DNA of 64,000 nt from Utricularia gibba (lineage: Eukaryota > Streptophyta > Magnoliopsida > Lamiales > Lentibulariaceae): positions 3,534,001 to 3,598,000 of the forward strand of contig NEEC01000007.1 of assembly GCA_002189035.1 (NCBI GenBank), in the 5' to 3' direction. This document shows, piece by piece, positions 37,512 through 63,692 of this stretch (its first letter is position 1; each line of letters begins with the position of its first letter). The notes under the pieces were generated by a model that saw only the letters and a program-made list of their open reading frames with translations, made no database searches and was not told where the DNA came from. Made by a program: the position numbers and the translations under genes.

Positions 37512-37735
37512 ATTTATTAACGTTTTTTTCTAGGCTGCATACATAGTTTCTCATTTGAAAAGCTTGTCTGTTTTCTGGGCGCGGGTGATGTCTTGAACTT
37601 CGTTCTGACCCGAGTAGGAGTGACTCGAGCTTTGCCACATCATAGTCACTCGACGTAGCTCGTGATAAAACTTGATGCAAGTTAGGTTAACGAGCACCCA
37701 TGCCTGGTTCATGGTTTTCTACCGGAAAAGCTTGT
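37512..37735 (+). other. Interleaved patch joining two registers of the monomer
   Basis: From 37605 words alternate strictly between the end of H2 leading into H1 and the end of H1 leading into H2: GACCC, GAGTAGGAG, TGACTC, GAGCT, TTGCCACATC, ATAGTCA, CTCGACG, TAGCTCG, TGAT, AAAACTTGATGCA, AGTTAGG, TTAACG, AGCACCCA. This is what results when two copies offset by half a monomer are zipped together. Confidence 0.75.
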
Positions 37736-37904
37736 TGTTTCTGGGCGGGCTGATGTCTTTTGGAACTTCGTTCTGACCATAGGTTCGGTCTGACTCCTTT
37801 GCCACATCGGGTCCTACTCGACGAAAATCGTGATGCAGTTATTGAAGTTAGGATTTCATGAGCACCCAAAATGGTTTTCTCAACCGCATGCTTTATATTT
37901 GATA

Positions 37905-38020
37905 AGGTCATAGTCGTTTGGTATCTCGGCAAAAAACTTGTCGATGTCATTTAATTAACATAGTCATTTAATAGCTGCGCATGCTTTTCTCAACTTGAAA
38001 GCTTTATCGTTTTGGTTTTA
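37905..38020 (+). other. Scrambled patch, duplicated and reordered words
   Basis: GATAAGG is followed directly by TCATAGTCG, then TATCTCGGCAAAAAACTTG, TTTAATTAACATAGTC, a second CATTTAATAG, and GCATGCTTTTCTCAACTTG. Normal order resumes at GGTTTTAATAGG near 38013. Confidence 0.7.
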
Positions 38021-38377
38021 ATAGGCTGCCTAATGGTTTTCTCAAGGAAAAGCTTGTCGTTTTGGGCGGGTGATGTCGTTGTGAACTTCGTTCTGACCCA
38101 AGGTTCGGTCTGTCTCCTTTGCCAAATCTGGTCCTACTCGACGAAAATCGTGATGCAGTTATTGAAGTTAGGATTTCATGAGCACCCAAAATGTTTTGTC
38201 AATCGCATGCTTTGTAGTTGAGGAGGCGCTCTAGTGGGGCACGGTATCGGGCAAAAGGTCGAGTCGGGCTCGCTCCCAGAGTCATTTTTAGCAAAAAAAA
38301 GTGATGCATTTATTAACGTTGGGTTTTAATAGGCTGCCTACATGGTTTCTCAAGGAAAAGCTTGTCGTTTCTGGGCG

Positions 38378-38425
38378 GGATGAGCACCCGGTCTGAAAAT
38401 GGTTTTCATGAGCAAAAATGGTTTT
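38378..38425 (+). other. Broken monomer junction without an anchor
   Basis: H2 stops at TTTCTGGGCGGGATGAGC and passes into GAAAATGGTTTTCATGAGC and AAAAATGGTTTTCTC. Most of the second part of H2 and the conserved core are lost, and the ATGGTTTT word is duplicated. Confidence 0.7.
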
Positions 38426-40830
38426 CTCAACCGCATGCTTTATATTTGATAAGGTCTCGTGGGGCAACGGTATCGAGCAGGAGGTCGAGTCGAGCTCGGG
38501 CCAAGTCATTTGTAGCCGGCAAAAAACTTGATGCATTTATTAACGTTGGTTTATAGGCTGCCTAGTTTCTCAAGGAAAAGCTTGTCGTTTCTGGCGGGTG
38601 ATGTCGTTGGGAACTTCGTTCTGACCAAGGTTCGGTCTGTCTCCTTTGCCAATCTGGTCCTACTCGACGAAAATCGTGATGCAGTTATTGAAGTTAGGAT
38701 TTCATGAGCACCCAAAATGTTTTGTCAATCGCATGCTTTGTAGTTGGGAGGCTCTAGTGGGGCACGGTATCGGGCAGGTCGAGTCGGGCTCGCCCAGAGT
38801 CATTTTTAGCCTGCAAAAAATTGATGCATTATTAACGTTGGTTTAATAGGCTGCCTACATGGTTTCTCAAGGAAAAGCTTGTCGTTTCTGGGCGGGTGAT
38901 GTCTTTTGGAACTTCGTTCTGACCAGGTTCGGTCTGACTCCTTTGCCACATCGGGTCCTACTCGACGAAAATCGTGATGCAGTTATTGAAGTTAGGATTT
39001 CATGAGCACCCAAAATGGTTTTCTCAACCGCATGCTTTATATTTGATAAGGCGCTCTCGTGGGCAACGGTATCGAGCAGGAGGTCGAGTCGAGCTCGGCC
39101 CAGAGTCATTTGTAGCCCGGCAAAAAAATTGATGCATTTATTAACGTTGGTTTAATAGGCTGCCTACATGTTTCTCAAGGAAAAGCTTGTCGTTTTGGGG
39201 GTGATGTCGTTGGAACTTCGTTCTGACCAAGGTTCGGTCTGACTCCTTTGCCAATCGGTCCTACTCGACGAAAATCGTGATGCAGTTATTGAAGTTAGGA
39301 TTTCATGAGCACCCAAAATGGTTTTCTCAACCGCATGCTTTATATTTGATAAGTGCTCTCGTGGGGCAACGGTATCGAGTAGGAGGTCGAGTCGAGCTCG
39401 GGCCCATAGTCATTTGTAGCTCGGCAAAAAAACTTGATGCATTTATTAACGTTGGTTTTAATAGGCTGCCTCAATGGTTTTCTCAAGGAAAAGCTTGTCG
39501 TTTTTGGGCGGTGATGTCGTTGTGAACTTCGTTCTGACCCAAGGTTCGGTCTGTCTCCTTTGCCAAATCTGGTCCTACTCGACGAAAATCGTGATGCAGT
39601 TATTGAAGTTAGGATTTCATGAGCACCCAAAATGCTTTTCAATCGCATGCTTTGTAGTTGAGGAGGCGCTCTAGTGGGGCACGGTATCGGCAAAAGGTCG
39701 AGTCGGGCTCGCCCAGAGTCATTTTTAGCCTGTCAAAAAAAGTGATGCATTTATTAACGTTGGGTTTTAATAGGCTGCCTACATGGTTTCTCAAGGAAAA
39801 GCTTGTCGTTTCTGGGCGGGTGATGTCTTTTGGAACTTCGTTCTGACCATAGGTTCGGTCTGACTCCTTTGCCACATCGGGTCCTACTCGACGAAAATCG
39901 TGATGCAGTTATTGAAGTTAGGATTCATGAGCACCCAAAATGTTTTCTCAACCGCATGCTTTATGATAAGGCACTCTCGTGGGGCAACGGTATCGAGCAG
40001 GAGGTCGAGTCGAGCTCGGCCCAGAGTCATTTGTAGCCCGGCAAAAAAATTGATGCATTTATTAACGTTTTTTATTAGGCTGCCTACATGTTTCTCAAGG
40101 AAAAGCTTGTCGTTTCTGGGCGGGTGATGTCTTTTGGAACTTCGTTCTGACCATAGGTTCGGTCTGACTCCTTTGCCACATCGGGTCCTACTCGACGAAA
40201 ATCGTGATGCAGTTATTGAAGTTAGGATTTCATGAGCACCCAAAATGGTTTTCTCAACCGCATGCTTTATATTTGATAAGGTGCTCTCGTGGGCAACGGT
40301 ATCGAGTAGGAGGTCGAGTCGAGCTCGGGCCCATAGTCATTTGTAGCTCGGCAAAAAACTTGATGCATTTATTAACGGTTGGTTTTAATAGGCTGCCTCA
40401 ATGGTTTTCTCAAGGAAAAGCTTGTCGTTTTTGGGCGGGTGATGTCGTTGTGAACTTCGTTCTGACCCAAGGTTCGGTCTGTCTCCTTTGCCAAATCTGG
40501 TCCTACTCGACGAAAATCGTGATGCAGTTATTGAAGTTAGGATTTCATGAGCACCCAAAATGCTTTTGTCAATCGCATGCTTTGTAGTTGAGGAGGCGCT
40601 CTAGTGGGGCACGGTATCGGGCAAAAGGTCGAGTCGGCTCGCTCCCAGAGTCATTTTTAGCCTGTCAAAAAAGTGATGCATTTATTAACGTTGGTTTTAA
40701 TAGGCTGCCTACATGGTTTCTCAAGGAAAAGCTTGTCGTTTCTGGGCGGGTGATGTCTTTTGGAACTTCGTTCTGACCATAGGTTCGGTCTGACTCCTTT
40801 GCCACATCGGGTCCTACTCGACGAAAATCG

Positions 40831-41109
40831 TGATGCAGTTATTGAAGTTAGGATTTCATGAGCACCCAAAATGGTTTTCTCAACCGCATGCTTTATATTT
40901 GATAAGGTGCTCTCGTGGGGCAACGGTATCGAGTAGGAGGTCGAGTCGAGCTCGGGCCCATAGTCATTTGTAGCCCGGCAAAAAAATTGATGCATTTATT
41001 AACGGTTGGCTTTATTAGGCTGCCTACATAGTTTCTCAAGGAAAAGCTTGTCGTTTCTGGGCGGGTGATGTCTTTGAACTTCGTTCTGACCAAGGTTCGG
41101 TCTGTCTCC
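40831..41109 (+). repeat. A/C recombinant monomer
   Basis: H1 is type A through GAGTAGGAGG and CCCATAGTC. It then switches to C features (GTAGCCCGGC, GGCTTTATTAGG, CATAGTTTC). The change lies within roughly 40965-41010. This is consistent with unequal crossing over or gene conversion between an A and a C copy. Confidence 0.6.
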
Positions 41110-41350
41110 TTTGCCAAATCGACGAAAATCGTCGTTATTGCATGAGCACCCAAAATGGTTTTCTCAACCGCATGCATATTTGATAAGGCATCTTGGGGCA
41201 ACGGTATCGGCAGGAGGTCGAGTCGAGCTCGGGCCAGAGTCATTTGTATTGATGCATTTATTAACGTTCGGCTTTATTAGGCTGCCTACATAGTTTCTCA
41301 AGGAAAAGCTTGTCGTTTCTGGCGGGTGATGTCTCGGCAAAAAACTTGGG
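41110..41350 (+). other. Eroded monomer with a misplaced insertion
   Basis: The core is reduced to ATCGACGAAAATCGTCG followed by TTATTGCATGAGC. H1 lacks several short blocks. In H2 the word CTCGGCAAAAAACTT, normally at the end of H1, is inserted between GATGT and GGGAAC near 41333-41348. Confidence 0.7.
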
Positions 41351-41417
41351 AACTTCGTTCTGACCCAAGGTTCTGTCTGACTCCTTTGCCACATCGGGTC
41401 CTACTCGACGAAAATCG

Positions 41418-41723
41418 TGATGCAGTTATTGAAGTTAGGATTCATGAGCACCCAAAATGGTTTTCTCAACCGCATGCTTTATATTTGATAAGGCGCTCTC
41501 GTGGGGCAACGGTATCGAGCAGGAGGTCGAGTCGAGCTCGGCCCATAGTCATTTGTAGCTCGGCAAAAAACTTGATGCATTAATTAACGTTGGGTTTTAA
41601 TAGAACCCTACATTGTTTTCTCAAAAAAGCTTGTCGTTTTGGGCGGGTGATTTCGTTGTGAACTTCGTTCTGACCCAAGGTTCGGTCTGTCTCCTTTGCC
41701 AAGGTCCTACTCGACGAAAATCG
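41418..41723 (+). repeat. Isolated type E monomer inside the A-B-C domain
   Basis: It has GCATTAATTAACG, GGGTTTTAATAGAACCC, CTACATTGTTTTCTC and GATTTCGTTGTGAAC, all type E markers. The nearest other clear E copies are left of 28.9 kb. It therefore looks like a relic of the older tetramer organisation or a transferred copy. Confidence 0.7.
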
Positions 41724-42352
41724 TGATGCAGTTATTGAAGTTAGGATTTCATGAGCACCCAAAATGGTTTTCTCAACCGCATGCTTTATATTTGATAAGG
41801 TGCTCTCGTGGGGCAACGTATCGAGTAGGAGGTCGAGTCGAGCTCGGGCCCATAGTCATTTGTAGCTCGGCAAAAAACTTGATGCATTTATTAACGGTTG
41901 GTTTTAATAGGCTGCCTCAATGGTTTTCTCAAGGAAAAGCTTGTCGTTTTTGGGCGGGTGATGTCGTTGTGAACTTCGTTCTGACCAAGGTTCGGTCTGT
42001 CTCCTTTGCCAAATCTGGTCCTACTCGACGAAAAATCGTGATGCAGTTATTGAAGTTAGGATTTCATGAGCACCCAAAATGCTTTTGTCAATCGCATGCT
42101 TTGTAGTTGAGGAGGCGCTCTAGTGGGGCACGGTATCGGGCAAAAGGTCGAGTCGGGCTCGCTCCCAGAGTCATTTTTAGCCTGTCAAAAAAAGTGATGC
42201 ATTTATTAACGTTGGGTTTTAATAGGCTGCCTACATGGTTTCTCAAGGAAAAGCTTGTCGTTTCTGGGCGGGTGATGTCTTTTGGAACTTCGTTCTGACC
42301 ATAGATTCGGTCTGACTCCTTTGCCACATCGGGTCCTACTCGACGAAAATCG

Positions 42353-42979
42353 TGATGCAGTTATTGAAGTTAGGATTTCATGAGCACCCAAAATGGTTTT
42401 CTCAACCGCATGCTTTATATTTGATAAGGCTCTCGTGGGGCAACGGTATCGAGTAGGAGGTCGAGTCGAGCTCGGGCCCATAGTCATTTGTAGCTCGGCA
42501 AAAAACTTGATGCATTTATTAACGGTTGGTTTTAATAGGCTGCCTCAATGGTTTTCTCAAGGAAAAGCTTGTCGTTTTTGGGCGGGTGATGTCGTTGTGA
42601 ACTTCGTTCTGACCAAGGTTCGGTCTGTCTCCTTTGCCAAATCTGGTCCTACTCGACGAAAATCGTGATGCAGTTATTGAAGTTAGGATTTCATGAGCAC
42701 CCAAAATGCTTTTGTCAATCGCATGCTTTGTAGTTGAGGAGGCGCTCTAGTGGGGCACGGTATCGGGCAAAAGGTCGAGTCGGGCTCGCTCCCAGAGTCA
42801 TTTTTAGCCTGTCAAAAAAAGTGATGCATTTATTAACGTTGGGTTTTAATAGGCTGCCTACATGGTTTCTCAAGGAAAAGCTTGTCGTTTCTGGGCGGGT
42901 GATGTCTTTTGGAACTTCGTTCTGACCATAGGTTCGGTCTGACTCCTTTGCCACATCGGGTCCTACTCGACGAAAATCG
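42353..42979 (+). repeat. A-B dimer, reference higher-order unit (627 bp)
   Basis: One complete A (42353-42665) and B (42666-42979) pair, followed directly by another A-B pair at 42980 and 43297. It represents the basic higher-order unit of the right-hand domain. Confidence 0.85.
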
Positions 42980-45833
42980 TGATGCAGTTATTGAAGTTAG
43001 GATTTCATGAGCACCCAAAATGGTTTTCTCAACCGCATGCTTTATATTTGATAAGGTGCTCTCGTGGGGCAACGGTATCGAGTAGGAGGTCGAGTCGAGC
43101 TCGGGCCCATAGTCATTTGTAGCTCGGCAAAAAACTTGATGCATTTATTAACGGTTGGTTTTAATAGGCTGCCTCAATGGTTTTCTCAAGGAAAAGCTTG
43201 TCGTTTTTTGGGCGGGTGATGTCGTTGTGAACTTCGTTCTGACCCAAGGTTCGGTCTGTCTCCTTTGCCAAATCTGGTCCTACTCGACGAAAATCGTGAT
43301 GCAGTTATTGAAGTTAGGATTTCATGAGCACCCAAAATGCTTTTTCAATCGCATGCTTTGTAGTTGAGGAGGCGCTCTAGTGGGGCACGGTATCGGGCAA
43401 AAGGTCGAGTCGGGCTCGCTCCAGAGTCATTTTTAGCCTGTCAAAAAAATGATGCATTTATTAACGTTGGGTTTTAATAGGCTGCCTACATGGTTTCTCA
43501 AGGAAAAGCTTGTCGTTTCTGGGCGGGTGATGTCTTTTGGAACTTCGTTCTGACCATAGGTTCGGTCTGACTCCTTTGCCACATCGGGTCCTACTCGACG
43601 AAAATCGTGATGCAGTTATTGAAGTTAGGATTTCATGAGCACCCAAAATGTTTTCTCAATCGCATGCTTTATATTTGAGGAGGCGCTCTCGTGGGGCACG
43701 GTATCGAGCAAAGGTCGAGTCGAGCTCGCCCAGAGTCATTTGTAGCCTGCAAAAAAAGTGATGCATTTATTAACGTTGGGTTTTAATAGGCTGCCTACAT
43801 GGTTTCTCAAGGAAAAGCTTGTCGTTTCTGGGCGGGTGATGTCTTTTGGAACTTCGTTCTGACCATAGGTTCGGTCTGACTCCTTTGCCACATCGGGTCC
43901 TACTCGACGAAAATCGTGATGCAGTTATTGAAGTTAGGATTTCATGAGCACCCAAAATGGTTTTCTCAACCGCATGCTTTATATTTGATAAGGTGCTCTC
44001 GTGGGGCAACGGTATCGAGTAGGAGGTCGAGTCGAGCTCGGGCCCATAGTCATTTGTAGCTCGGCAAAAAACTTGATGCATTTATTAACGGTTGGTTTTA
44101 ATAGGCTGCCTCAATGGTTTTCTCAAGGAAAAGCTTGTCGTTTTTGGGCGGGTGATGTCGTTGTGAACTTCGTTCTGACCAAGGTTCGGTCTGTCTCCTT
44201 TGCCAAATCTGGTCCTACTCGACGAAAATCGTGATGCAGTTATTGAAGTTAGGATTTCATGAGCACCCAAAATGCTTTTGTCAATCGCATGCTTTGTAGT
44301 TGAGGAGGCGCTCTAGTGGGGCACGGTATCGGGCAAAAGGTCGAGTCGGGCTCGCTCCCAGAGTCATTTTTAGCCTGTCAAAAAAGTGATGCATTTATTA
44401 ACGTTGGGTTTTAATAGGCTGCCTACATGGTTTCTCAAGGAAAAGCTTGTCGTTTCTGGCGGGTGATGTCTTTGGAACTTCGTTCTGACCATAGGTTCGG
44501 TCTGACTCCTTTGCCACATCGGGTCCTACTCGACGAAAATCGTGATGCAGTTATTGAAGTTAGGATTTCATGAGCACCCAAAATGGTTTTCTCAACCGCA
44601 TGCTTTATATTTGATAAGGCACTCTCGTGGGGCAACGGTATCGAGCAGGAGGTCGAGTCGAGCTCGGCCCAGAGTCATTTGTAGCCGGCAAAAAAATTGA
44701 TGCATTTATTAACGTTGGTTTAATAGGCTGCCTACATGTTTCTCAAGGAAAAGCTTGTCGTTTCTGGGCGGGTGATGTCTTTTGGAACTTCGTTCTGACC
44801 ATAGGTTCGGTCTGACTCCTTTGCCACATTGGTCCTACTCGACGAAAATCGTGATGCAGTTATTGAAGTTAGGATTTCATGAGCACCCAAAATGGTTTTC
44901 TCAACCGCATGCTTTATATTTGATAAGGTGCTCTCGTGGGGCAACGGTATCGAGCAGGAGGTCGAGTCGAGCTCGGTCCCAGAGTCATTTGTAGCCCGGC
45001 AAAAAAATTGATGCATTTATTAACGTTGGTTTAATAGGCTGCCTACATGGTTTCTCAAGGAAAAGCTTGTCGTTTCTGGGCGGGTGATGTCTTTTGGAAC
45101 TTCGTTCTGACCATAGGTTCGGTCTGACTCCTTTGCCACATCGGGTCCTACTCGACGAAAATCGTGATGCAGTTATTGAAGTTAGGATTTCATGAGCACC
45201 CAAAATGGTTTTCTCAACCGCATGCTTTATATTTGATAAGGTGCTCTCGTGGGGCAACGGTATCGAGTAGGAGGTCGAGTCGAGCTCGGGCCCATAGTCA
45301 TTTGTAGCTCGGCAAAAAACTTGATGCATTTATTAACGGTTGGTTTTAATAGGCTGCCTCAATGGTTTTCTCAAGGAAAAGCTTGTCGTTTTTGGGCGGG
45401 TGATGTCGTTGTGAACTTCGTTCTGACCAAGGTTCGGTCTGTCTCCTTTGCCAAATCTGGTCCTACTCGACGAAAATCGTGATGCAGTTATTGAAGTTAG
45501 GATTTCATGAGCACCCAAAATGCTTTTGTCAATCGCATGCTTTGTAGTTGAGGAGGCGCTCTAGTGGGGCACGGTATCGGGCAAAAGGTCGAGTCGGGCT
45601 CGCTCCAGAGTCATTTTTAGCCTGTCAAAAAAAGTGATGCATTTATTAACGTTGGGTTTTAATAGGCTGCCTACATGGTTTCTCAAGGAAAAGCTTGTCG
45701 TTTCTGGCGGGTGATGTCTTTTGGAACTTCGTTCTGACCATAGTTCGGTCTGACTCCTTTGCCACATCGGGTCCTACTCGACGAAAATCGTGATGCAGTT
45801 ATTGAAGTTAGGATTTCATGAGCACCCAAAATG

Positions 45834-46030
45834 CCACATTTTCGACGAAAATCAAGTTATTGAAGTTAGGATTTCGCATGCTTTTTATATTTGATATTGA
45901 ACGGTAGGCGCTCTAGTGGGGCAAAAAACGGTATCGGGCAATGGTTTTCTCAAGGTCGAGTCGTTGCTCGCTGACCAGAGTCATTTATTAGCATGAGCAC
46001 CCAAAATGTTTTGTCAAAAAAGGCGCTCTA
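45834..46030 (+). other. Scrambled patch inside a B-type monomer
   Basis: B-type words occur in order but are interrupted by others. CACATTTTCGACG precedes a second GAAGTTAGG; AAAAAAC follows GTGGGGC; ATGGTTTTCTCAA is set between TCGGGCA and GGTCGAG; CATGAGCACCCAAAATG follows ATTTATTAG. The sequence returns to normal at GATGCATTTATTAACG near 46031. Confidence 0.75.
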
Positions 46031-49000
46031 GATGCATTTATTAACGTTGGGTTTTAATAGGCTGCCTACATGGTTTCTCAAGGAAAAGCTTGTCGTTTCT
46101 GGGCGGGTGATGTCTTTTGGAACTTCGTTCTGACCATAGGTTCGGTCTGACTCCTTTGCCACATCGGGTCCTACTCGACGAAAATCGTGATGCAGTTATT
46201 GAAGTTAGGATTTCATGAGCACCCAAAATGGTTTTCTCAACCGCATGCTTTATATTTGATAAGGTGCTCTCGTGGGGCAACGGTATCGAGTAGGAGGTCG
46301 AGTCGAGCTCGGGCCCATAGTCATTTGTAGCTCGGCAAAAAACTTGATGCATTTATTAACGGTTGGTTTTAATAGGCTGCCTCAATGGTTTTCTCAAGGA
46401 AAAGCTTGTCGTTTTGGGCGGGTGATGTCGTTGTGAACTTCGTTCTGACCAAGGTTCGTCTGACTCTTGCCAAATCTGGTCCTACTCGACGAAAATCGTG
46501 ATGCAGTTATTGAAGTTAGGATTTCATGAGCACCCAAAATGCTTTTGTCAATCGCATGCTTTGTAGTTGAGGAGGCGCTCTAGTGGGGCACGGTATCGGG
46601 CAAAAGGTCGAGTCGGGCTCGCTCCAGAGTCATTTTTAGCCTGTCAAAAAAGTGATGCATTTATTAACGTTGGGTTTTAATAGGCTGCCTACATGGTTTC
46701 TCAAGGAAAAGCTTGTCGTTTCTGGGGGGTGATGTCTTTGAACTTCGTTCTGACCATAGGTTCGGTCTGACTCCTTTGCCACATCGGGTCCTACTCGACG
46801 AAAATCGTGATGCAGTTATTGAAGTTAGGATTTCATGAGCACCCAAAATGGTTTTCTCAACCGCATGCTTTATATTTGATAAGGCACTCTCGTGGGGCAA
46901 CGGTATCGAGCAGGAGGTCGAGTCGAGCTCGGCCCAGAGTCATTTGTAGCCCGGCAAAAAAATTGATGCATTTATTAACGTTGGTTTTAATAGGCTGCCT
47001 ACATGGTTTCTCAAGGAAAAGCTTGTCGTTTCTGGGCGGGTGATGTCTTTTGGAACTTCGTTCTGACCATAGGTTCGGTCTGACTCCTTTGCCACATCGG
47101 GTCCTACTCGACGAAAATCGTGATGCAGTTATTGAAGTTAGGATTTCATGAGCACCCAAAATGGTTTTCTCAACCGCATGCTTTATATTTGATAAGGTGC
47201 TCTCGTGGGGCAACGGTATCGAGCAGGAGGTCGAGTCGAGCTCGGCCCAGAGTCATTTGTAGCCGGCAAAAAATTGATGCATTTATTAACGTTGGTTTAT
47301 AGGCTGCCTACATGGTTTCTCAAGGAAAAGCTTGTCGTTTCTGGGCGGGTGATCTTTTGGAACTTCGTTCTGACCATAGGTTCGGTCTGACTCCTTTGCC
47401 ACATCGGGTCCTACTCGACGAAAATCGTGATGCAGTTATTGAAGTTAGGATTTCATGAGCACCCAAAATGGTTTTCTCAACCGCATGCTTTATATTTGAT
47501 AAGGCTCTCTGGGGCAACGGTATCGAGTAGGAGGTCGAGTCGAGCTCGGGCCCATAGTCATTTGTAGCTCGGCAAAAAACTTGATGCATTTATTAACGGT
47601 TGGTTTTAATAGGCTGCCTCAATGGTTTTCTCAAGGAAAAGCTTGTCGTTTTTGGCGGGTGATGTCGTTGTGAACTTCGTTCTGACCCAAGGTTCGGTCT
47701 GTTCCTTTGCCAATCTGGTCCTACTCGACGAAAATCGTGATGCAGTTATTGAAGTTAGGATTTCATGAGCACCCAAAATGCTTTTGTCAATCGCATGCTT
47801 TGTAGTTGAGGAGGCGCTCTAGTGGGGCACGGTATCGGCAAAAGGTCGAGTCGGGCTCGCTCCAGAGTCATTTTTAGCCTGTCAAAAAAAGTGATGCATT
47901 TATTAACGTTGGGTTTTAATAGGCTGCCTACATGGTTTCTCAAGGAAAAGCTTGTCGTTTCTGGGCGGGTGATGTCTTTGGAACTTCGTTCTGACCAAGG
48001 TTCGGTCTGACTCCTTTGCCACATCGGGTCCTACTCGACGAAAATCGTGATGCAGTTATTGAAGTTAGGATTCATGAGCACCCAAAATGGTTTTCTCAAC
48101 CGCATGCTTTATATTTGATAAGGTCTCGTGGGGCAACGGTATCGAGCAGGAGGTCGAGTCGAGCTCGGGCCAGAGTCATTTGTAGCAAAAAATTGATGCA
48201 TTTATTAACGTTGGCTGCCTACATAGTTTCTCAGGAAAAGCTTGTCGTTTCTGGGCGGTGATGTCTTTTGGAACTTCGTTCTGACCAAGGTTCGGTCTGA
48301 CTCCTTTGCCACATCGGTCCTACTCGACGAAAATCGTGATGCAGTTATTGAAGTTAGGATTTCATGAGCACCCAAAATGTTTTCTCAACCGCATGCTTTA
48401 TATTTGATAAGGTGCTCTCGTGGGGCAACGGTATCGAGTAGGAGGTCGAGTCGAGCTCGGGCCCATAGTCATTTGTAGCTCGGCAAAAAACTTGATGCAT
48501 TTATTAACGGTTGGTTTTAATAGGCTGCCTCAATGGTTTTCTCAAGGAAAAGCTTGTCGTTTTTGGGCGGTGATGTCGTTGTGAACTTCGTTCTGACCAA
48601 GGTTCGGTCTGTCTCCTTTGCCAAATCTGGTCCTACTCGACGAAAATCGTGATGCAGTTATTGAAGTTAGGATTTCATGAGCACCCAAAATGCTTTTCAA
48701 TCGCATGCTTTGTAGTTGAGGAGGCGCTCTAGTGGGGCACGGTATCGGGCAAAAGGTCGAGTAGAGTCATTTTTAGCCTGTCAAAAAAAGTGATGCATTT
48801 ATTAACGTTGGTTTTAATAGGCTGCCTACATGTTTCTCAAGGAAAAGCTTGTCGTTTCTGGCGGGTGATGTCTTTTGGAACTTCGTTCTGACCATAGGTT
48901 CGGTCTGACTCCTTTGCCACATCGGGTCCTACTCGACGAAAATCGTGATGCAGTTATTGAAGTTAGGATTTCATGAGCACCCAAAATGGTTTTCTCAACC

Positions 49001-49260
49001 GCATGCTTTATATTTGATAAGGTGCTCTCGTGGGGCAACGGTATCGAGTAGGAGGTCGAGTCGAGCTCGGCCCATAGTCATTTGTAGCTCGGCAAAAAAC
49101 TTGATGCATTTATTAACGTTGGTTTTAATAGGCTGCCTCAATGGTTTTTCTCAAGGAAAAGCTTGTCGTTTTTGGGCGGGTGATGTCGTTGTGAACTTCG
49201 TTCTGACCCAAGGTTCGGTCTGTCTCCTTTGCCAAATCTGGTCCTACTCGACGAAAATCG

Positions 49261-49574
49261 TGATGCAGTTATTGAAGTTAGGATTTCATGAGCACCCAAA
49301 ATGCTTTTGTCAATCGCATGCTTTGTAGTTGAGGAGGCGCTCTAGTGGGGCACGGTATCGGGCAAAAGGTCGAGTCGGGCTCGCTCCCAGAGTCATTTTT
49401 AGCCTGTCAAAAAAAGTGATGCATTTATTAACGTTGGGTTTTAATAGGCTGCCTACATGGTTTCTCAAGGAAAAGCTTGTCGTTTCTGGGCGGGTGATGT
49501 CTTTTGGAACTTCGTTCTGACCATAGGTTCGGTCTGACTCCTTTGCCACATCGGGTCCTACTCGACGAAAATCG
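49261..49574 (+). repeat. Type B monomer, reference copy (314 bp)
   Basis: Type B is the most divergent type. In H1 it has ATGCTTTTGTCAATCGC, GCTTTGTAGTTGAGG, GGCGCTCTAGTGGGGCACGG, TCGGGCAAAAGG, TCGGGCTCGCTCCCAG and TTTTTAGCCTGTC. In H2 it has AAAAGTGATGCAT, CGTTGGGTTTTAATAGG, TTTCTGGGCGGG, GATGTCTTTTGGAAC, GACCATAGG and CCACATCGGG. Compared with other types it has lost the SacI palindrome and the TATA-like TTTATATTTGAT. Copies that look like precursors, with only part of this variant set, are at 8721, 9651 and 12135; fully formed copies begin at 17092. Confidence 0.85.
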
Positions 49575-49597
49575 TGATGCAGTTATTGAAGTTAGGA
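49563..49597 (+). other. Most conserved ~35-bp core of the monomer (reference copy)
   Basis: The block spanning the H2/H1 junction, from CGACGAAAATCG through TGATGCAGTTATTG to GTTAGGA, is almost invariant over the window. I found only a handful of indel lesions in it outside the scrambled patches, for example near 2811, 6848, 21421, 25781, 42031 and 60597. Flanking G and C runs vary in most copies. It contains a short dyad, ACGA-AAA-TCGT, at 49565-49575. Conservation could reflect a protein-binding site, but no known box is matched, and low homopolymer content could also make it look clean. Function is unproven. Confidence 0.5.
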
Positions 49598-49731
49598 TTT
49601 CATGAGCACCCAAAATGGTTTTCTCAACCGCATGCTTTATATTTGATAAGGTGCTCTCGTGGGGCAACGGTATCGAGTAGGAGGTCGAGTCGAGCTCGGG
49701 CCCATAGTCATTTGTAGCTCGGCAAAAAACT
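49575..49731 (+). repeat. H1 half-monomer (157 bp), reference copy
   Basis: First half of the type A monomer, from TGATGCAG to just before TGATGCAT. Its first 53 bases align without gaps to the first 53 bases of H2 (49732 onward), with 40 identities counted by hand. Shared blocks include TGATGCA, TTATT, and a 14-base run AATGGTTTTCTCAA. Further on, a GGTG...TCGT...AAC block and a terminal CTCG.C.AAAA element before TGATGCA also match. H1 carries the SphI site, the palindrome CGAGCTCG and an A5-A8 tract at its 3' end. The homology shows that the 312-bp monomer arose by duplication of a unit of about 156 bp. Confidence 0.9.
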
Positions 49732-49890
49732 TGATGCATTTATTAACGGTTGGTTTTAATAGGCTGCCTCAATGGTTTTCTCAAGGAAAAGCTTGTCGTT
49801 TTTGGGCGGGTGATGTCGTTGTGAACTTCGTTCTGACCCAAGGTTCGGTCTGTCTCCTTTGCCAAATCTGGTCCTACTCGACGAAAATCG
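49732..49890 (+). repeat. H2 half-monomer (159 bp), reference copy
   Basis: Second half of the type A monomer, starting TGATGCAT and ending just before the next TGATGCAG. It is homologous to H1 over its whole length, strongest at both ends. It holds the HindIII site within GGAAAAGCTTG, where H1 has the related GCATGCTT. Half lengths are regular: 157+159 in this A copy, 156+158 in the B copy at 49261, 155+157 in the C copy at 58310 and 155+157 in the D copy at 14610. Confidence 0.9.
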
Positions 49891-50509
49891 TGATGCAGTT
49901 ATTGAAGTTAGGATTTCATGAGCACCCAAAATGCTTTTGTCAATCGCATGCTTTGTAGTTGAGGAGGCGCTCTAGTGGGGCACGGTATCGGGCAAAAGGT
50001 CGAGTCGGCTCGCTCCCAGTCATTTTTAGCCTGTCAAAAAAAGTGATGCATTTATTAACGTTGGGTTTTAATAGGCTGCCTACATGGTTTCTCAAGGAAA
50101 AGCTTGTCGTTTCTGGGGGTGATGTCTTTGGAACTTCGTTCTGACCATAGGTTCGGTCTGACTCCTTTGCCACATCGGGTCCTACTCGACGAAAATCGTG
50201 ATGCAGTTATTGAAGTTAGGATTTCATGAGCACCCAAAATGGTTTTCTCAACCGCATGCTTTATATTTGATAAGGCACTCTCGTGGGGCAACGGTATCGA
50301 GCAGGAGGTCGAGTCGAGCTCGGCCCAGAGTCATTTGTAGCCCGGCAAAAAAATTGATGCATTTATTAACGTTGGTTTATTAGGCTGCCTACATGTTTCT
50401 CAAGGAAAAGCTTGTCGTTTCTGGGCGGGTGATGTCTTTTGGAACTTCGTTCTGACCATAGGTTCGGTCTGACTCCTTTGCCAAATCGGGTCCTACTCGA
50501 CGAAAATCG

Positions 50510-51438
50510 TGATGCAGTTATTGAAGTTAGGATTTCATGAGCACCCAAAATGGTTTTCTCAACCGCATGCTTTATATTTGATAAGGTGCTCTCGTGGGGC
50601 AACGGTATCGAGTAGGAGGTCGAGTCGAGCTCGGGCCCATAGTCATTTGTAGCTCGGCAAAAAACTTGATGCATTTATTAACGTTGGTTTTAATAGGCTG
50701 CCTCAATGGTTTTCTCAAGGAAAAGCTTGTCGTTTTTGGGCGGTGATGTCGTTGTGAACTTCGTTCTGACCCAAGGTTCGGTCTGTCTCCTTTGCCAAAT
50801 CTGGTCCTACTCGACGAAAATCGTGATGCAGTTATTGAAGTTAGGATTTCATGAGCACCCAAAATGCTTTTCAATCGCATGCTTTGTAGTTGAGGAGGCG
50901 CTCTAGTGGGGCACGGTATCGGGCAAAAGGTCGAGTCGGGCTCGCCAGAGTCATTTTTAGCCTGTCAAAAAAAGTGATGCATTTATTAACGTTGGGTTTT
51001 AATAGGCTGCCTACATGGTTTCTCAAGGAAAAGCTTGTCGTTTCTGGGCGGTGATGTCTTTGGAACTTCGTTCTGACCATAGGTTCGGTCTGACTCCTTT
51101 GCCACATCGGTCCTACTCGACGAAAATCGTGATGCAGTTATTGAAGTTAGGATTCATGAGCACCCAAAATGGTTTTCTCAACCGCATGCTTTATATTTGA
51201 TAAGGCACTCTCGTGGGGCAACGGTATCGAGCAGGAGGTCGAGTCGAGCTCGCCCAGAGTCATTTGTAGCCCGGCAAAAAATTGATGCATTTATTAACGT
51301 TGGTTTTAATAGGCTGCCTACATGTTTCTCAAGGAAAAGCTTGTCGTTTCTGGGCGGGTGATGTCTTTTGGAACTTCGTTCTGACCATAGGTTCGGTCTG
51401 ACTCCTTTGCCACATCGGGTCCTACTCGACGAAAATCG
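50510..51438 (+). repeat. A-B-C trimer, reference higher-order unit (929 bp)
   Basis: A 50510, B 50824 and C 51130, followed by the next A-B-C at 51439, 51755 and 52064. The A copy has GGGCGGTGATG and the B copy has ATGCTTTTCAATCGC. The same two linked variants occur together in the A-B pairs at 39278-39900 and 48337-48945. Confidence 0.8.
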
Positions 51439-52339
51439 TGATGCAGTTATTGAAGTTAGGATTTCATGAGCACCCAAAATGGTTTTCTCAACCGCATGCT
51501 TTATATTTGATAAGGTGCTCTCGTGGGGCAACGGTATCGAGTAGGAGGTCGAGTCGAGCTCGGGCCCATAGTCATTTGTAGCTCGGCAAAAAACTTGATG
51601 CATTTATTAACGGTTGGTTTTAATAGGCTGCCTCAATGGTTTTCTCAAGGAAAAGCTTGTCGTTTTTGGGCGGGTGATGTCGTTGTGAACTTCGTTCTGA
51701 CCCAAGGTTCGGTCTGTCTCCTTTGCCAAATCTGGTCCTACTCGACGAAAATCGTGATGCAGTTATTGAAGTTAGGATTTCATGAGCACCCAAAATGCTT
51801 TTGTCAATCGCATGCTTTGTAGTTGAGGAGGCGCTCTAGTGGGGCACGGTATCGGGCAAAGGTCGAGTCGGGCTCGCTCCCAGAGTCATTTTTAGCCTGT
51901 CAAAAAAAGTGATGCATTTATTAACGTTGGGTTTTAAAGGCTGCCTACATGGTTTCTCAAGAAAAGCTTGTCGTTTCTGGGGGGTGATGTCTTTTGGAAC
52001 TTCGTTCTGACCATAGTTCGGTCTGACTCCTTTGCCACATCGGGTCCTACTCGACGAAAATCGTGATGCAGTTATTGAAGTTAGGATTTCATGAGCACCC
52101 AAAATGGTTTTCTCAACCGCATGCTTTATATTGATAAGGCACTCTCGTGGGGCAACGGTATCGAGCAGGAGGTCGAGTCGAGCTCGGCCCAGAGTCATTT
52201 GTAGCCCGGCAAAAAATTGATGCATTTATTAACGTTCGGCTTTATTAGGCTGCCTACATAGTTTCTCAAGGAAAAGCTTGTCGTTTCTGCGGGTGATGTC
52301 TTTTGGAACTTCGTTCTGACCAAGGTTCGGTCTGACTCC

Positions 52340-52830
52340 TTTGCCACCTACTCGACGAAAATCGTGATGCAGTTATTGAAGTTAGGATTTCATGAGCTGG
52401 TTTTCTCAACCGCATGCGATAAGGTGCTCTCGTGGGGCAACGGTATCGAGTAGGAGGTCGAGTCGAGCTTAGTCATTTGTAGCTCGGCAAAAAACTTGAT
52501 GCATTTATTAACGGAATAGGCTGCCTCAATGGTTTTCTCAAGGAAAAGCAACTTCCCAAAAATCTGGTCCTACTCGACGAAAATCGTGATGCAGTTATTG
52601 AAGTTAGGATTTCATGAGCACCCAAAATGCTTTTGTCAATCGCATGCTTTGTATAGGAGGCGCTCTAGTGGGGCACGGTAAGGTCGAGTCGGGCTCTCAT
52701 TTTTAGTGGTGATGCATTTATTAACGTTGGGTTTTAATAGGCTGCCTAGGAAAAGCTTGTCGTTTCTGGCGGGTGATGGGAACTTCGTTCTGACCATAGT
52801 TCGAGCCACATCGGGTCCTACTCGACGAAA
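52340..52830 (+). other. Monomers with many short block deletions
   Basis: The A-B pair at 52365 and 52587 spans 470 bp instead of about 627. Losses are of 5-20 bases, for example the bases between CCAC and CTACTCG, ACCCAAAAT after CATGAGC, TTTATATTT after GCATGC, and part of H2 after GGAAAAGC near 52549. The order of the remaining words is normal, unlike in the scrambled patches. Confidence 0.75.
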
Positions 52831-53649
52831 ATCGTGATGCAGTTATTGAAGTTAGGATTTCATGAGCACCCAAAATGGTTTTCTCAACCGCATGCTTTAT
52901 ATTTGATAAGTGCTCTCGTGCAACGGTATCGAGTAGGAGGTCGAGTCGAGCTCGGCCCATAGTCATTTGTAGCTCGGCAAAAAACTTGATGCATTTATTA
53001 ACGGTTGGTTTTAATAGGCTGCCTCAATGTTTTCTCAAGGAAAAGCTTGTCGTTTTTGGGCGGGTGATGTCGTTGTGAACTTCGTTCTGACCAAGGTTCG
53101 GTCTCTCCTTTGCCAAATCTGGTCCTACTCGACGAAAATCGTGATGCAGTTATTGAAGTTAGGATTTCATGAGCACCCAAAATGCTGAATCGCATGCTTT
53201 GTAGTTGAGACGCTCTAGTGGGGCACGGTATCGGCAAAAGGTCGAGTCGGCTCGAGAGTCATTTTAGCCTGTCAAAAAAAGTGATGCATTTATTAACGTT
53301 GGGTTTTAATAGGCTGCCTACATGGTTTCTCAAGGAAAAGCTTGTCGTTTCTGGGCGGGTGATGTCTTTTGGAACTTCGTTCTGACCATAGGTTCGGTCT
53401 GACTCCTTTGCCACATCGGGTCCTACTCGACGAAAATCGTGATGCAGTTATTGAAGTTAGGATTTCATGAGCACCCAAAATGGTTTTCTCAACCGCATGC
53501 TTTATATTTGATAAGGTGCTCTCGTGGGGCAACGGTATCGAGTAGGAGTCGAGTCGAGCTCGGGCCCATAGTCATTTGTAGCTCGGCAAAAAACTTGATG
53601 CATTTATTAACGTTGGTTTTATAGGCTGCCTCAATGGTTTCTCAAGGAA

Positions 53650-53830
53650 AAGCTTGTCATGTCGTTGTGAACTTCGTTCTGACCAAGGTTCAAAAGGTCC
53701 TACTCGACGAAAATCGTGATGCAGTTATTGAAGTTAGGATTTCATGAGCACCCAAAATGTGCATGCTTTGTATTGAGGAGGCGCGTGGGGCACGGTATTC
53801 GAGTCGGCTCGCTCCCAGAGTCATTTTAAA
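53650..53830 (+). other. Shortened A/B junction
   Basis: H2 of the A copy at 53440 loses the bases between GCTTGTC and ATGTCG, and GGTTC passes straight into AAAAGGTCC. The following B copy at 53717 lacks parts around GCATGC, CGGGC and AGCCTGTC. The monomer spacings are 277 and 276 bp. Confidence 0.7.
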
Positions 53831-56800
53831 AAAAAGTGATGCATTTATTAACGTTGGGTTTTAATAGGCTGCCTACATGGTTTCTCAAGGAAAAGCTTGT
53901 CGTTTCTGCGGGTGATGTCTTTTGGAACTTCGTTCTGACCATAGGTTCGGTCTGACTCCTTTGCCACATCGGGTCCTACTCGACGAAAATCGTGATGCAG
54001 TTATTGAAGTTAGGATTTCATGAGCACCCAAAATGTTTTCTCAACGCATGCTTTATTGAGGAGGCGCTCTGTGGGGCACGGTATCGAGCAAAGGTCGAGT
54101 CGGGCTCGCTCCCAGAGTCATTTTTAGCCTGCAAAAAAAGTGATGCATTTATTAACGTTGGTTTTAATAGGCTGCCTACATGGTTTCTCAAGGAAAAGCT
54201 TGTCGTTTCTGGGGGTGATGTCTTTTGGAACTTCGTTCTGACCATAGGTTCGGTCTGACTCCTTTGCCACATCGGGTCCTACTCGACGAAAATCGTGATG
54301 CAGTTATTGAAGTTAGGATTTCATGAGCACCCAAAATGGTTTTCTCAACCGCATGCTTTATATTTGATAAGGTGCTCTCGTGGGGCAACGGTATCGAGTA
54401 GGAGGTCGAGTCGAGCTCGGGCCCATAGTCATTTGTAGCTCGGCAAAAAACTTGATGCATTTATTAACGTTGTTTTAATAGGCTGCCTCAATGGTTTTCT
54501 CAAGGAAAAGCTTGTCGTTTTTGGGCGGTGATGTCGTTGTGAACTTCGTTCTGACCAAGGTTCGGTCTGTCTCCTTTGCCAAATCTGGTCCTACTCGACG
54601 AAAATCGTGATGCAGTTATTGAAGTTAGGATTTCATGAGCACCCAAAATGCTTTTTCAATCGCATGCTTTGTAGTTGAGGAGGCGCTCTAGTGGGGCACG
54701 GTATCGGGCAAAAGGTCGAGTCGGCTCGCTCCCAGAGTCATTTTAGCCTGTCAAAAAAAGTGATGCATTTATTAACGTTGGTTTTATAGGCTGCCTACAT
54801 GGTTTCTCAAGGAAAAGCTTGTCGTTTCTGGGCGGGTGATGTCTTTGGAACTTCGTTCTGACCAAGGTTCGGTCTGACTCCTTTGCCACATCGGTCCTAC
54901 TCGACGAAAATCGTGATGCAGTTATTGAAGTTAGGATTTCATGAGCACCCAAAATGGTTTTCTCAACCGCATGCTTTATATTTGATAAGCGCTCTCGTGG
55001 GGCAACGGTATCGAGCAGGAGTCGAGTCGAGCTCGGCCCAGAGTCATTTGTAGCGGCAAAAAATTGATGCATTTATTAACTTGGTTTTTAGGCTGCCTAC
55101 ATGGTTTTCTCAAGGAAAAGCTTGTCGTTTCTGGCGGGTGATGTCTTTTGGAACTTCGTTCTGACCATAGGTTCGGTCTGACTCCTTTGCCACATCGGGT
55201 CCTACTCGACGAAAATCGTGATGCAGTTATTGAAGTTAGGATTTCATGAGCACCCAAAATGTTTTCTCAACCGCATGCTTTATATTTGATAAGGGCTCTC
55301 GTGGGGCAACGGTATCGAGCAGGAGGTCGAGTCGAGCTCGGCCCATAGTCATTTGTAGCTCGGCAAAAAAATTGATGCATTTATTAACGTTGGTTTAATA
55401 GGCTGCCTACATGGTTTCTCAAGGAAAAGCTTGTCGTTTCTGGGCGGGTGATGTCTTTTGGAACTTCGTTCTGACCATAGGTTCGGTCTGACTCCTTTGC
55501 CACATCGGGTCCTACTCGACGAAAATCGTGATGCAGTTATTGAAGTTAGGATTTCATGAGCACCCAAAATGGTTTTCTCAACCGCATGCTTTATATTTGA
55601 TAAGTGCTCTCGTGGGGCAACGGTATCGAGTAGGAGGTCGAGTCGAGCTCGGGCCCATAGTCATTTGTAGCTCGGCAAAAAACTTGATGCATTTATTAAC
55701 GGTTGGTTTTAATAGGCTGCCTCAATGGTTTCTCAAGGAAAAGCTTGTCGTTTTTGGGCGGGTGATGTCGTTGTGAACTTCGTTCTGACCCAAGGTTCGG
55801 TCTGTCTCCTTTGCCAAATCTGGTCCTACTCGACGAAAATCGTGATGCAGTTATTGAAGTTAGGATTTCATGAGCACCCAAAATGCTTTTGTCAATCGCA
55901 TGCTTTGTAGTTGAGGAGGCGCTCTAGTGGGGCACGGTATCGGGCAAAAGGTCGAGTCGGGCTCGCTCCCAGAGTCATTTTTAGCCTGTCAAAAAAAGTG
56001 ATGCATTTATTAACGTTGGGTTTTAATAGGCTGCCTACATGGTTTCTCAAGGAAAAGCTTGTCGTTTCTGGGCGGGTGATGTCTTTTGGAACTTCGTTCT
56101 GACCATAGGTTCGGTCTGACTCCTTTGCCACATCGGGTCCTACTCGACGAAAATCGTGATGCAGTTATTGAAGTTAGGATTCATGAGCACCCAAAATGGT
56201 TTTCTCAACCGCATGCTTTATATTTGATAAGGCACTCTCGTGGGGCAACGGTATCGAGCAGTCGAGTCGAGCTCGGCCCAGAGTCATTTGTAGCCCGGCA
56301 AAAAAAAATTGATGCATTTATTAACGTTGGCTTTATAGGCTGCCTCATAGTTTCTCAAGGAAAAGCTTGTCGTTTTGGGCGGGTGATGTCTTTTGGAACT
56401 TCGTTCTGACCAAGGTTCGGTCTGACTCCTTTGCCACATCGGTCCTACTCGACGAAAATCGTGATGCAGTTATTGAAGTTAGGATTTCATGAGCACCCAA
56501 AATGGTTTTCTCAACCGCATGCTTTATATTTGATAAGGTGCTCTCGTGGGGCAACGGTATCGAGTAGGAGGTCGAGTCGAGCTCGGGCCCATAGTCATTT
56601 GTAGCTCGGCAAAAAACTTGATGCATTTATTAACGGTTGGTTTTAATAGGCTGCCTCAATGTTTTCTCAAGGAAAAGCTTGTCGTTTTTGGCGGGTGATG
56701 TCGTTGTGAACTTCGTTCTGACCCAAGGTTCGGTCTGTCTCCTTTGCCAAATCTGGTCCTACTCGACGAAAATCGTGATGCAGTTATTGAAGTTAGGATT

Positions 56801-58309
56801 TCATGAGCACCCAAAATGTTTTCTCAACGCATGCTTTGTATTTGAGGAGGCGCTCTCGTGGGGCACGGTATCGGCAAAAGGTCGAGTCGGCTCGCCCAGA
56901 GTCATTTTAGCCGCAAAAAAGTGATGCATTTATTAACGTTGGTTTTAATAGGCTGCCTACATGGTTTCTCAAGGAAAGCTTGTCGTTTCTGGGGGTGATG
57001 TCTTTTGGAACTTCGTTCTGACCATAGGTTCGGTCTGACTCCTTTGCCACATCGGGTCCTACTCGACGAAAATCGTGATGCAGTTATTGAAGTTAGGATT
57101 TCATGAGCACCCAAAATGGTTTCTCAACCGCATGCTTTATATTTGATAAGGTGCTCTCGTGGGGCAACGGTATCGAGTAGGAGGTCGAGTCGAGCTCGGG
57201 CCCATAGTCATTTGTAGCTCGGCAAAAACTTGATGCATTTATTAACGTTGGTTTTAATAGGCTGCCTCAATGGTTTTCTCAAGGAAAAGCTTGTCGTTTT
57301 TGGCGGGTGATGTCGTTGTGAACTTCGTTCTGACCAAGGTTCGGTCTGTCTCCTTTGCCAATCTGGTCCTACTCGACGAAAATCGTGATGCAGTTATTGA
57401 AGTTAGGATTTCATGAGCACCAAAATGTTTTGTCAATCGCATGCTTTGTAGTTGAGGAGGCGCTCTAGTGGGGCACGGTATCGGCAAAAGGTCGAGTCGG
57501 CTCGCCCAGAGTCATTTTAGCCTGTCAAAAAAATGATGCATTTATTAACGTTGGTTTTAATAGGCTGCCTACATGGTTTCTCAAGGAAAAGCTTGTCGTT
57601 TCTGGCGGGTGATGTCTTTTGGAACTTCGTTCTGACCATAGTTCGGTCTGACTCCTTTGCCACATCGGGTCCTACTCGACGAAAATCGTGATGCAGTTAT
57701 TGAAGTTAGGATTTCATGAGCACCCAAAATGGTTTTCTCAACCGCATGCTTTTATTTGATAAGGTGCTCTCGTGGGGCAACGGTATCGAGTAGGTCGAGT
57801 CGAGCTCGGGCCCATAGTCATTTGTAGCTCGGCAAAAAACTTGATGCATTTATTAACGGTTGGTTTTAATAGGCTGCCTCAATGGTTTTCTCAAGGAAAA
57901 GCTTGTCGTTTTGGCGGTGATGTCGTTGTGAACTTCGTTCTGACCAAGGTTCGGTCTGTCTCCTTTGCCAAATCTGGTCCTACTCGACGAAAATCGTGAT
58001 GCAGTTATTGAAGTTAGGATTTCATGAGCACCCAAAATGCTTTTGTCAATCGCATGCTTTGTAGTTGAGGAGGCGCTCTAGTGGGGCACGGTATCGGGCA
58101 AAGGTCGAGTCGGGCTCGCTCCCAGAGTCATTTTTAGCCTGTCAAAAAAAGTGATGCATTTATTAACGTTGGGTTTTAATAGGCTGCCTACATGGTTTCT
58201 CAAGGAAAAGCTTGTCGTTTCTGGGCGGGTGATGTCTTTTGGAACTTCGTTCTGACCATAGGTTCGGTCTGACTCCTTTGCCACATCGGGTCCTACTCGA
58301 CGAAAATCG

Positions 58310-58621
58310 TGATGCAGTTATTGAAGTTAGGATTTCATGAGCACCCAAAATGGTTTTCTCAACCGCATGCTTTATATTTGATAAGGCACTCTCGTGGGGC
58401 AACGGTATCGAGCAGGAGGTCGAGTCGAGCTCGGCCCAGAGTCATTTGTAGCCCGGCAAAAAATTGATGCATTTATTAACGTTCGGCTTTATAGGCTGCC
58501 TACATAGTTTCTCAAGGAAAAGCTTGTCGTTTCTGGGCGGGTGATGTCTTTTGGAACTTCGTTCTGACCATAGGTTCGGTCTGACTCCTTTGCCACATCG
58601 GGTCCTACTCGACGAAAATCG
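58310..58621 (+). repeat. Type C monomer, reference copy (312 bp)
   Basis: Type C combines GATAAGGCACTCTCG, GAGCAGGAGG, CTCGGCCCAGAGTC and GTAGCCCGGC in H1 with GGCTTTATAGG (often GGCTTTATTAGG), CTACATAGTTTCTC, TTTCTGGGCGGG and GATGTCTTTTGGAAC in H2. Its H1 resembles D and its H2 resembles B, so it may be an old recombinant between them. In the right-hand domain it is the optional third member after A-B. Confidence 0.75.
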
Positions 58622-59844
58622 TGATGCAGTTATTGAAGTTAGGATTTCATGAGCACCCAAAATGGTTTTCTCAACCGCATGCTTTATATTTGATAAGGCG
58701 CTCTCGTGGGCAACGGTATCGAGTAGGAGGTCGAGTCGAGCTCGGGCCCATAGTCATTTGTAGCTCGGCAAAAAACTTGATGCATTTATTAACGGTTGGT
58801 TTTAATAGGCTGCCTCAATGGTTTTCTCAAGGAAAAGCTTGTCGTTTTTGGGCGGGTGATGTCGTTGTGAACTTCGTTCTGACCAAGGTTCGGTCTGTCT
58901 CCTTTGCCAAATCTGGTCCTACTCGACGAAAATCGTGATGCAGTTATTGAAGTTAGGATTCATGAGCACCCAAAATGCTTTTTCAATCGCATGCTTTGTA
59001 GTTGAGGAGGCGCTCTAGTGGGGCACGGTATGCGGGCAAAAGGTCGAGTCGGGCTCGCCCAGAGTCATTTTTAGCCTGTCAAAAAAAGTGATGCATTTAT
59101 TAACGTTGGGTTTTAATAGGCTGCCTACATGGTTTCTCAAGGAAAAGCTTGTCGTTTCTGGGGGTGATGTCTTTTGGAACTTCGTTCTGACCATAGGTTC
59201 GGTCTGACTCCTTTGCCACATCGGGTCCTACTCGACGAAAATCGTGATGCAGTTATTGAAGTTAGGATTCATGAGCACCCAAAATGGTTTTCTCAACCGC
59301 ATGCTTTATATTTATAAGGCACTCTCGTGGGGCAACGGTATCGAGCAGGAGGTCGAGTCGAGCTCGGCCCAGAGTCATTTGTAGCCCGGCAAAAAAATTG
59401 ATGCATTTATTAACGTTGGCTTTATTAGGCTGCCTACATAGTTTCTCAAGGAAAAGCTTGTCGTTTCTGGGCGGGTGATGTCTTTTGGAACTTCGTTCTG
59501 ACCATAGGTTCGGTCTGACTCCTTTGCCACATCGGGTCCTACTCGACGAAAATCGTGATGCAGTTATTGAAGTTAGGATTTCATGAGCACCCAAAATGGT
59601 TTTCTCAACCGCATGCTTTATATTTGATAAGGCACTCTCGTGGGGCAACGGTATCGAGTAGGAGGTCGAGTCGAGCTCGGGCCCATAGTCATTTAGCCGG
59701 CAAAAAATTGATGCATTTATTAACGTTTGGTTTTAATAGGCTGCCTCAATGGTTTTCTCAAGGAAAAGCTTGTCGTTTTTGGGCGGGTGATGTCGTTGTG
59801 AACTTCGTTCTGACCCAAGGTTCGGTCTGTCTCCTTTGCCAAAT

Positions 59845-59945
59845 CTCCTTTGCCACATCGCATGGTCCTCTACACGGTATCGACGAAAGATCATTTTTAG
59901 CCTGATGCAGTTAATTGAAGTTAAGGATTGTCATGAGTTCTGACC
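59845..59945 (+). other. Interleaved patch mixing H2 end with B-type H1
   Basis: CTCCTTTGCC occurs twice. Then GTCCTCTAC is followed by ACGGTATCG, ACGAAA, GATCATTTTTAGCCT and GATGCAGTTAATTG, and later GAGTTCTGACCCGG. Words of a B-type H1 end are inserted at regular points into an H2-to-H1 junction. An intact anchor follows at 59991. Confidence 0.75.
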
Positions 59946-60949
59946 CGGTCTGACTCCTTTGCCACATCGGGTCCTACTCGACGAAAATCGTGATGCAGTT
60001 ATTGAAGTTAGGATTCATCATGAGCATGCTTTATATTGATAAGGCCTCTCGTGGGGCAACGGTATCGATCGAGTCGGCTCGCCCAGAGTCATTTTAGCCC
60101 GGCAAAAAAATTGATGCATTTATTAACGTTCGGTTTATTAGGCTGCCTACATATTTTCAAGGAAAAGCTTGTCGTTTCTGGGCGGGTGATGTCTTTTGGA
60201 ACTTCGTTCTGACCATAGGTTCGGTCTGACTCCTTTGCCACATCGGGTCCTACTCGACGAAAATCGTGATGCAGTTATTGAAGTTAGGATTTCATGAGCA
60301 CCCAAAATGGTTTTCTCAACCGCATGCTTTATATTTGATAAGGTGCTCTCGTGGGGCAACGGTATCGAGTAGGAGGTCGAGTCGAGCTCGGGCCCATAGT
60401 CATTTGTAGCTCGGCAAAAAACTTGATGCATTTATTAACGTTGGTTTTAATAGGCTGCCTCAATGGTTTTCTCAAGGAAAAGCTTGTCGTTTTTGGGCGG
60501 TGATGTCGTTGTGAACTTCGTTCTGACCAAGGTTCGGTCTGTCTCTTTGCCAAATCTGGTCCTACTCGACGAAAATCGTGATGCAGTTATTGAAGTTAGA
60601 TTTCATGAGCACCCAAAATGCTTTTGTCAATCGCATGCTTTGTAGTTGAGGAGGCGCTCTAGTGGGGCACGGTATCGGGCAAAAGGTCGAGTCGGCTCGC
60701 TCCAGAGTCATTTTTAGCCTGTCAAAAAAAGTGATGCATTTATTAACGTTGGGTTTAATAGGCTGCCTACATGGTTTCTCAAGGAAAAGCTTGTCGTTTC
60801 TGGGCGGTGATGTCTTTTGGAACTTCGTTCTGACCATAGGTTCGGTCTGACTCCTTTGCCACATCGGGTCCTACTCGACGAAAATCGTGATGCAGTTATT
60901 GAAGTTAGGATTTCATGAGCACCCAAAATGGTTTTCTCAACCGCATGCT

Positions 60950-60992
60950 TTATATTTCATAAGGTGCTTTCTCGCATGCTTTATATTTGATA
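60950..60992 (+). other. Short local duplication in H1
   Basis: TTTCATAAGGTGCTTTCTC is followed by a second GCATGCTTTATATTTG and GATAAGGCACTCTCG. The first part looks like A (GGTGCT) and the second like C (GGCACT). The anchor spacing grows to 345 bp, the largest I measured. Confidence 0.7.
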
Positions 60993-63629: not shown

Positions 63630-63692
63630 AAAGTGGGGCGGGTGATGTCGTTGTGAACTTCGTTCTGACCCTTCGGGTTAGAAAATCGTGAT
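63630..63692 (+). other. Altered H2 near the right end
   Basis: GGAAAAGTGGGGCGGG replaces the usual HindIII-site region. CTGACCCTTCGGGTTAGAAAATCG replaces the second part of H2, so about 45 bases are lost and the string TTCGGGTTA is not typical of this satellite. The B-type monomer after it is normal. Confidence 0.65.

Follow-up and report, generated by a model that had tools for sequence, protein, structure and literature searches.

The tandem array examined here, on contig C213 of the Utricularia gibba assembly, repeats with a period of 312 bp, and the question it raises is whether this unit is itself a doubled repeat of around 156 bp, and how old the doubling is relative to the amplification of the array. 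The window, the whole 64,000 nt stretch that was analysed (C213:3,534,001-3,598,000), lies inside the array. The dimer at 49575-49890 serves as a reference, and the features needed for the comparison of its halves are the following.

1..64000, + strand: 312-bp dimeric satellite array, with the window inside it (TRF, HMM dissection)
49575..49731, + strand: half-unit H1 of the reference dimer, 157 bp
49732..49890, + strand: half-unit H2 of the reference dimer, 159 bp
49575..49627, + strand: 53-bp block of H1, gap-free against the start of H2, with 40 identical bases
49732..49784, + strand: the matching 53-bp block of H2

The motif TGATGCA, found at 49575, 49732 and 49891, bounds the two halves. 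A preliminary description of the locus held that both begin with this motif and then align without gaps for 53 bases, 40 of them identical, and that they share AATGGTTTTCTCAA as well as a 3' element, CTCG.C.AAAA; the best local alignment of H1 with H2 returned exactly these 53 bases and 40 identities, and both elements were found in each half. The register also holds from end to end of the two halves: the full-length pairwise comparison gives 105 identities, 41 mismatches and 24 gap positions. The global score was -6, compared to a mean of -106 (sd 13) and a best value of -63 among 1000 dinucleotide shuffles, and hence lies about 7.7 sd above them; when H2 was rotated, the register starting at TGATGCA outscored all others against H1. 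Ungapped autocorrelation of the window peaks at lags of 155-157 and 311-313, reaching 0.320 at lag 156 and 0.353 at lag 312 against a four-letter chance level of about 0.25, and in the circular 316-bp unit the lags of 157/159 give 0.399, with the next lag at 0.313. Neither the shuffled-sequence control, in which the real score exceeded all 1000 shuffles, nor the autocorrelation near 156 bp therefore contradicts the proposed dimer. The accompanying estimate of about 25% divergence is accurate for the first 53 bp, but over the whole half the divergence is 40-50%, the identity of H1 and H2 in the multiple alignment of the window family being 50-53% over the full length.

The similarity is strongest in the first 53 bp and the last 15 bp or so, and cross-half identity falls to 0.35-0.48 in parts of the middle, as might suit an origin of the resemblance in a short shared motif or in convergence instead of common descent. 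Such an origin is nevertheless highly improbable, given the advantage of the TGATGCA register over every rotation, the distance of the real score from the shuffles, the equal lengths of the halves, and the better alignment over their length (64%, 9.8 sd) of diverged halves from another contig, C402. The 312-bp unit is thereby confirmed as a dimer of homologous halves of around 156 bp.

Within the window, TRF reports 192 copies of period 312 over 1-59845 and a further 11.5 over 60024-63633. One interruption was noted between these tracts:

59846..59990, + strand: scrambled, degenerate stretch breaking the array

It consists of short pieces of both halves, and may represent an assembly or consensus error or a rearranged unit. 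Many units of the array are also without short homopolymer runs (for example, CCC reduced to C, or GG lost), which suggests long-read consensus error.

The window was cut into half-units with competing profile HMMs (1-64000 covered), giving 421 half-units in 2-1-2-1 alternation with six same-type neighbours, cases in which truncated or partial units are involved. Half lengths had been put at 155-157 and 157-159 bp, but the spread is wider across the window, where H1 has a median length of 155 bp (IQR 153-156) and H2 of 156 bp (IQR 154.5-157.5). When each of the 401 full-length halves was split into thirds, 200 were purely H1, 201 purely H2 and none a mosaic of the two. Like halves of different units are 93% alike on average, for H1 and H2 equally, compared to the 50-53% between H1 and H2; fine measures of diversity are uncertain, as units often differ by small deletions, which are perhaps errors of this long-read assembly. 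There are two main types of H1 in the window and four of H2. Dimers at lags of 1 to 30 are 88-90% alike, and a higher-order pattern of 312-bp types was sought in the window and rejected, since identity hardly changes with lag apart from a slight ripple.

Because the alternation is near-strict and there are no H1/H2 mosaics, the 312-bp dimer is the unit of copying and homogenisation, in agreement with its earlier designation as the unit of amplification. An identity of around 50% between H1 and H2 would restrict unequal exchange and gene conversion to the 312-bp register, such that like halves would be homogenised with like, H1 and H2 would no longer exchange, and arrays would lengthen or shorten by steps of one dimer. 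It is from the absence of mosaics that we infer exchange to be the homogenising process.

The genome searched for further copies was the 100.09-Mb assembly of 516 contigs. On C213, which begins with telomere repeats, the array runs from approximately 3,486,168 to the contig end at 3,704,653, a span of at least 218 kb (with limits set by sampling) situated about 3.5 Mb from the telomere; TTTAGGG-type repeats are found at several contig ends, and the histone H3 encoded in this genome is of plant type. Next to the left edge of the array is a Ty1/copia element (RVT_2), and further out lies one of Ty3/gypsy type (RVT_1, RNase H). This edge was considered as a store of old monomers and discarded, as it still consists of H1/H2 dimers, cut by the copia element. 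A 24-base word from H1 has 3,988 exact matches genome-wide and 9,262 with up to two mismatches, the latter count possibly including copies of a 2.33-kb family in which one H1 form differs by two, whilst the reversed-pattern control gave no matches. The 312-bp family comprises thousands of dimers, extending over megabases. At the start of contig C414 (1-160), a diverged satellite fragment, with part of one half resembling H2 and part of another resembling H1, lies directly beside a gag-like reading frame, which has a CCHC motif and no Pfam match.

Relatives of the two halves are found in different arrangements elsewhere. Contig C402 (2.63 Mb) ends in a tandem repeat of about 2.33 kb with alternating diverged halves, each unit being composed of approximately three diverged H1/H2 pairs and about 1.4 kb of other sequence; this remaining part includes subrepeats of around 62 bp. 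Contig C22 (42,104 bp) has a strictly alternating H1/H2 array with a period of about 313 in all five stretches read, and a 28-base word of this family has 7,232 matches genome-wide with up to two mismatches. In the array of this type on contig C11, approximately every fifth dimer is without the exact 28-mer, at a spacing of about 1,570 bp, which suggests a second-level repeat of five dimers.

Between families, identities are 69-77% for H1 with H1, 66-73% for H2 with H2 and 47-64% for H1 with H2, the most alike halves being a pair from the C402 repeat, H1_C402b and H2_C402c (64%, 9.8 sd above shuffles). In a half-unit tree, covering three families only and with few independent units from the 2.33-kb family, all H1 sequences fall in one clade and all H2 sequences in the other, with supports of 99-100, and the AU test rejects a grouping of halves by family (p = 1.2e-8 for the three families together, 1.3e-7 for the window family on its own). 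Because the H1 and H2 clades are separate and independent doubling is rejected, the dimer predates the separation of the three families; this shows a single origin of the dimer, before the 312-bp, ~313-bp and 2.33-kb families diverged.

Our preferred reading, to which we assign a probability of about 0.88, is that this is an old dimeric satellite that arose from an ancestor of around 156 bp and has been amplified and kept in the dimer register. An ancestral tandem unit of that size would have given rise to the two-part unit H1+H2, which would then have been amplified whole, and following formation of the dimer at least three families would have diverged to about 70% identity. Searches of the plant's own genome, with patterns and through the best 40 DNA candidates, found no array of 156-bp monomers; the ancestor is for that reason reconstructed from the halves alone, and we infer its former existence as a free-standing repeat.

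The first step may have taken another form, in which an array of ~156-bp monomers had already diversified when a pair of adjacent, already different monomers was captured and amplified as a dimer. This would yield an end product identical to that of doubling a single monomer, and is a route documented in other species (Melters 2013, PMC4053949). Identity between halves reaches 64% in the C402 copy, compared to 50-53% for the window family, and the halves could have acquired much of their divergence prior to amplification. We consider capture to have a little less than an even chance, as neither a surviving monomer array nor a third type of half was seen, every relative found being H1 or H2. 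The old dimeric satellite of the preferred reading, with at least three families descended from it in a small plant genome, allows doubling and amplification to be dated relative to one another.

Conservation within the unit is uneven. Common substitutions occur at 53 of 315 unit positions in the window, and the longest stretch free of them spans the passage from one dimer into the next:

49869..49914, + strand: H2-to-H1 junction block (approximately H2_138 to H1_24), the longest run without a common substitution in 190 copies

These 45 bp, from H2_138 to H1_24, were a post hoc finding (permutation p = 0.0074). Their 20-bp core, AATCGTGATGCAGTTATTGA, has 12 variants in 190 units, compared to an average of about 257 per 20 bp, and two variants in a set of 105 units drawn from other contigs and from the end of C213; both half-starts are among the best-kept stretches between families. 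Recent homogenisation, instead of selection, could produce this conservation. That the block, around CTACTCGACGAAAATCGTGATGCAGTTATTGAAGTTAGGAT, is a selected, half-specific site for protein binding or nucleosome positioning, present once per dimer, appears improbable on the present analysis; if true, it would explain why the dimer, and not the monomer, was the unit retained in three families. The attribution of the unit to nucleosome length was not upheld, as no 10-bp AA/TT periodicity was detected as a nucleosome signal. The CENP-B box, TTCGNNNNANNCGGG, was likewise rejected, having a single match with one mismatch in the 64 kb, against 16.8 expected by chance.

The megabase abundance of the family, the nucleosome-scale halves and the position of the array, flanked by Ty1/copia and Ty3/gypsy elements some 3.5 Mb from the telomere, would suit a CENH3-bound centromeric repeat of the genome. 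However, C3 and C4 have telomere repeats at both ends, and among the matches listed for the window, C402, C22, 340-bp family and junction patterns, there was no exact match on C1, C3 or C4, and a single isolated 15-mer match, with no array, on C2; strongly decayed copies escape exact-match searches, and arrays can be collapsed during assembly. Within these limits of assembly and exact matching, no array of the family lies on C1-C4, such that presence at most or all centromeres, and with it the suggestion of a general centromeric role, did not hold up. Also opposed are the description of the putative centromeric regions of U. gibba as without satellites (PMC8333044), and the occurrence of an unrelated 337-353-bp satellite at the ends of other large contigs. 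Judged from sequence, a centromere role is possible for the 312-bp family, but that it is the centromeric repeat of the genome seems unlikely; on some chromosomes, the arrays presumably occupy a heterochromatic, possibly pericentromeric, location. The result for C1-C4 agrees with the remark on satellite-free putative centromeric regions (PMC8333044), whilst the genome-wide data show that it does not extend to the genome as a whole. The satellite-free claim is qualified by megabases of satellite on other chromosomes and unplaced contigs, so that satellite-rich and apparently satellite-free chromosomes may coexist in U. gibba.

The second satellite, with units of 337, 341 and 353 bp, resembles the 312-bp family in being abundant and situated at the ends of large contigs (C244, C451 and the start of C402). 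A 14-mer from it has 4,054 exact matches genome-wide, none of them on C1-C31, the first listed array being on C32. Kinship with the 312-bp family was considered and dismissed, the scores lying within those of shuffles, and this satellite has neither a half-period autocorrelation peak nor internal halves. In the same plant family, the abundant 161-bp centromeric repeat of Genlisea nigrocaulis, Gn7c161 (PMC4542322), is similar in length to the half-units but, unlike the 312-bp dimer, is monomeric; its two published primers (49 nt in total) have no similarity above shuffles to any family described here.

Of 171 species, 76 were found to have higher-order structure (Melters et al. 2013, PMC4053949), and a dimeric satellite is a known kind of repeat, represented by the 343-bp repeat of New World monkeys and by alpha satellite dimers; new here are the 312-bp family, the descent of three families from one dimer, and the apparent lack of the 312-bp family on complete chromosomes. 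The New World monkey repeat is a doubled form of the 171-bp alpha satellite (Melters et al. 2013, PMC4053949), and no sequence relationship to the plant satellite is claimed. In both, the unit is twice nucleosome scale, the halves are weakly related, each with its own changes, and the dimer is now the repeating unit; however, the 171-bp monomeric relative survives in other primates, whereas none is known here. As in the SF1/SF2 dimers of human alpha satellite (PMC8122249), two half types alternate and one of them bears a specific conserved block. The SF1/SF2 halves differ by up to about 30%, compared to 40-50% in the 312-bp satellite, and the CENP-B box of the alpha dimers (PMC8122249) is absent from the latter; the placement of the putative junction site would be analogous to that of the CENP-B box in alternate alpha monomers.
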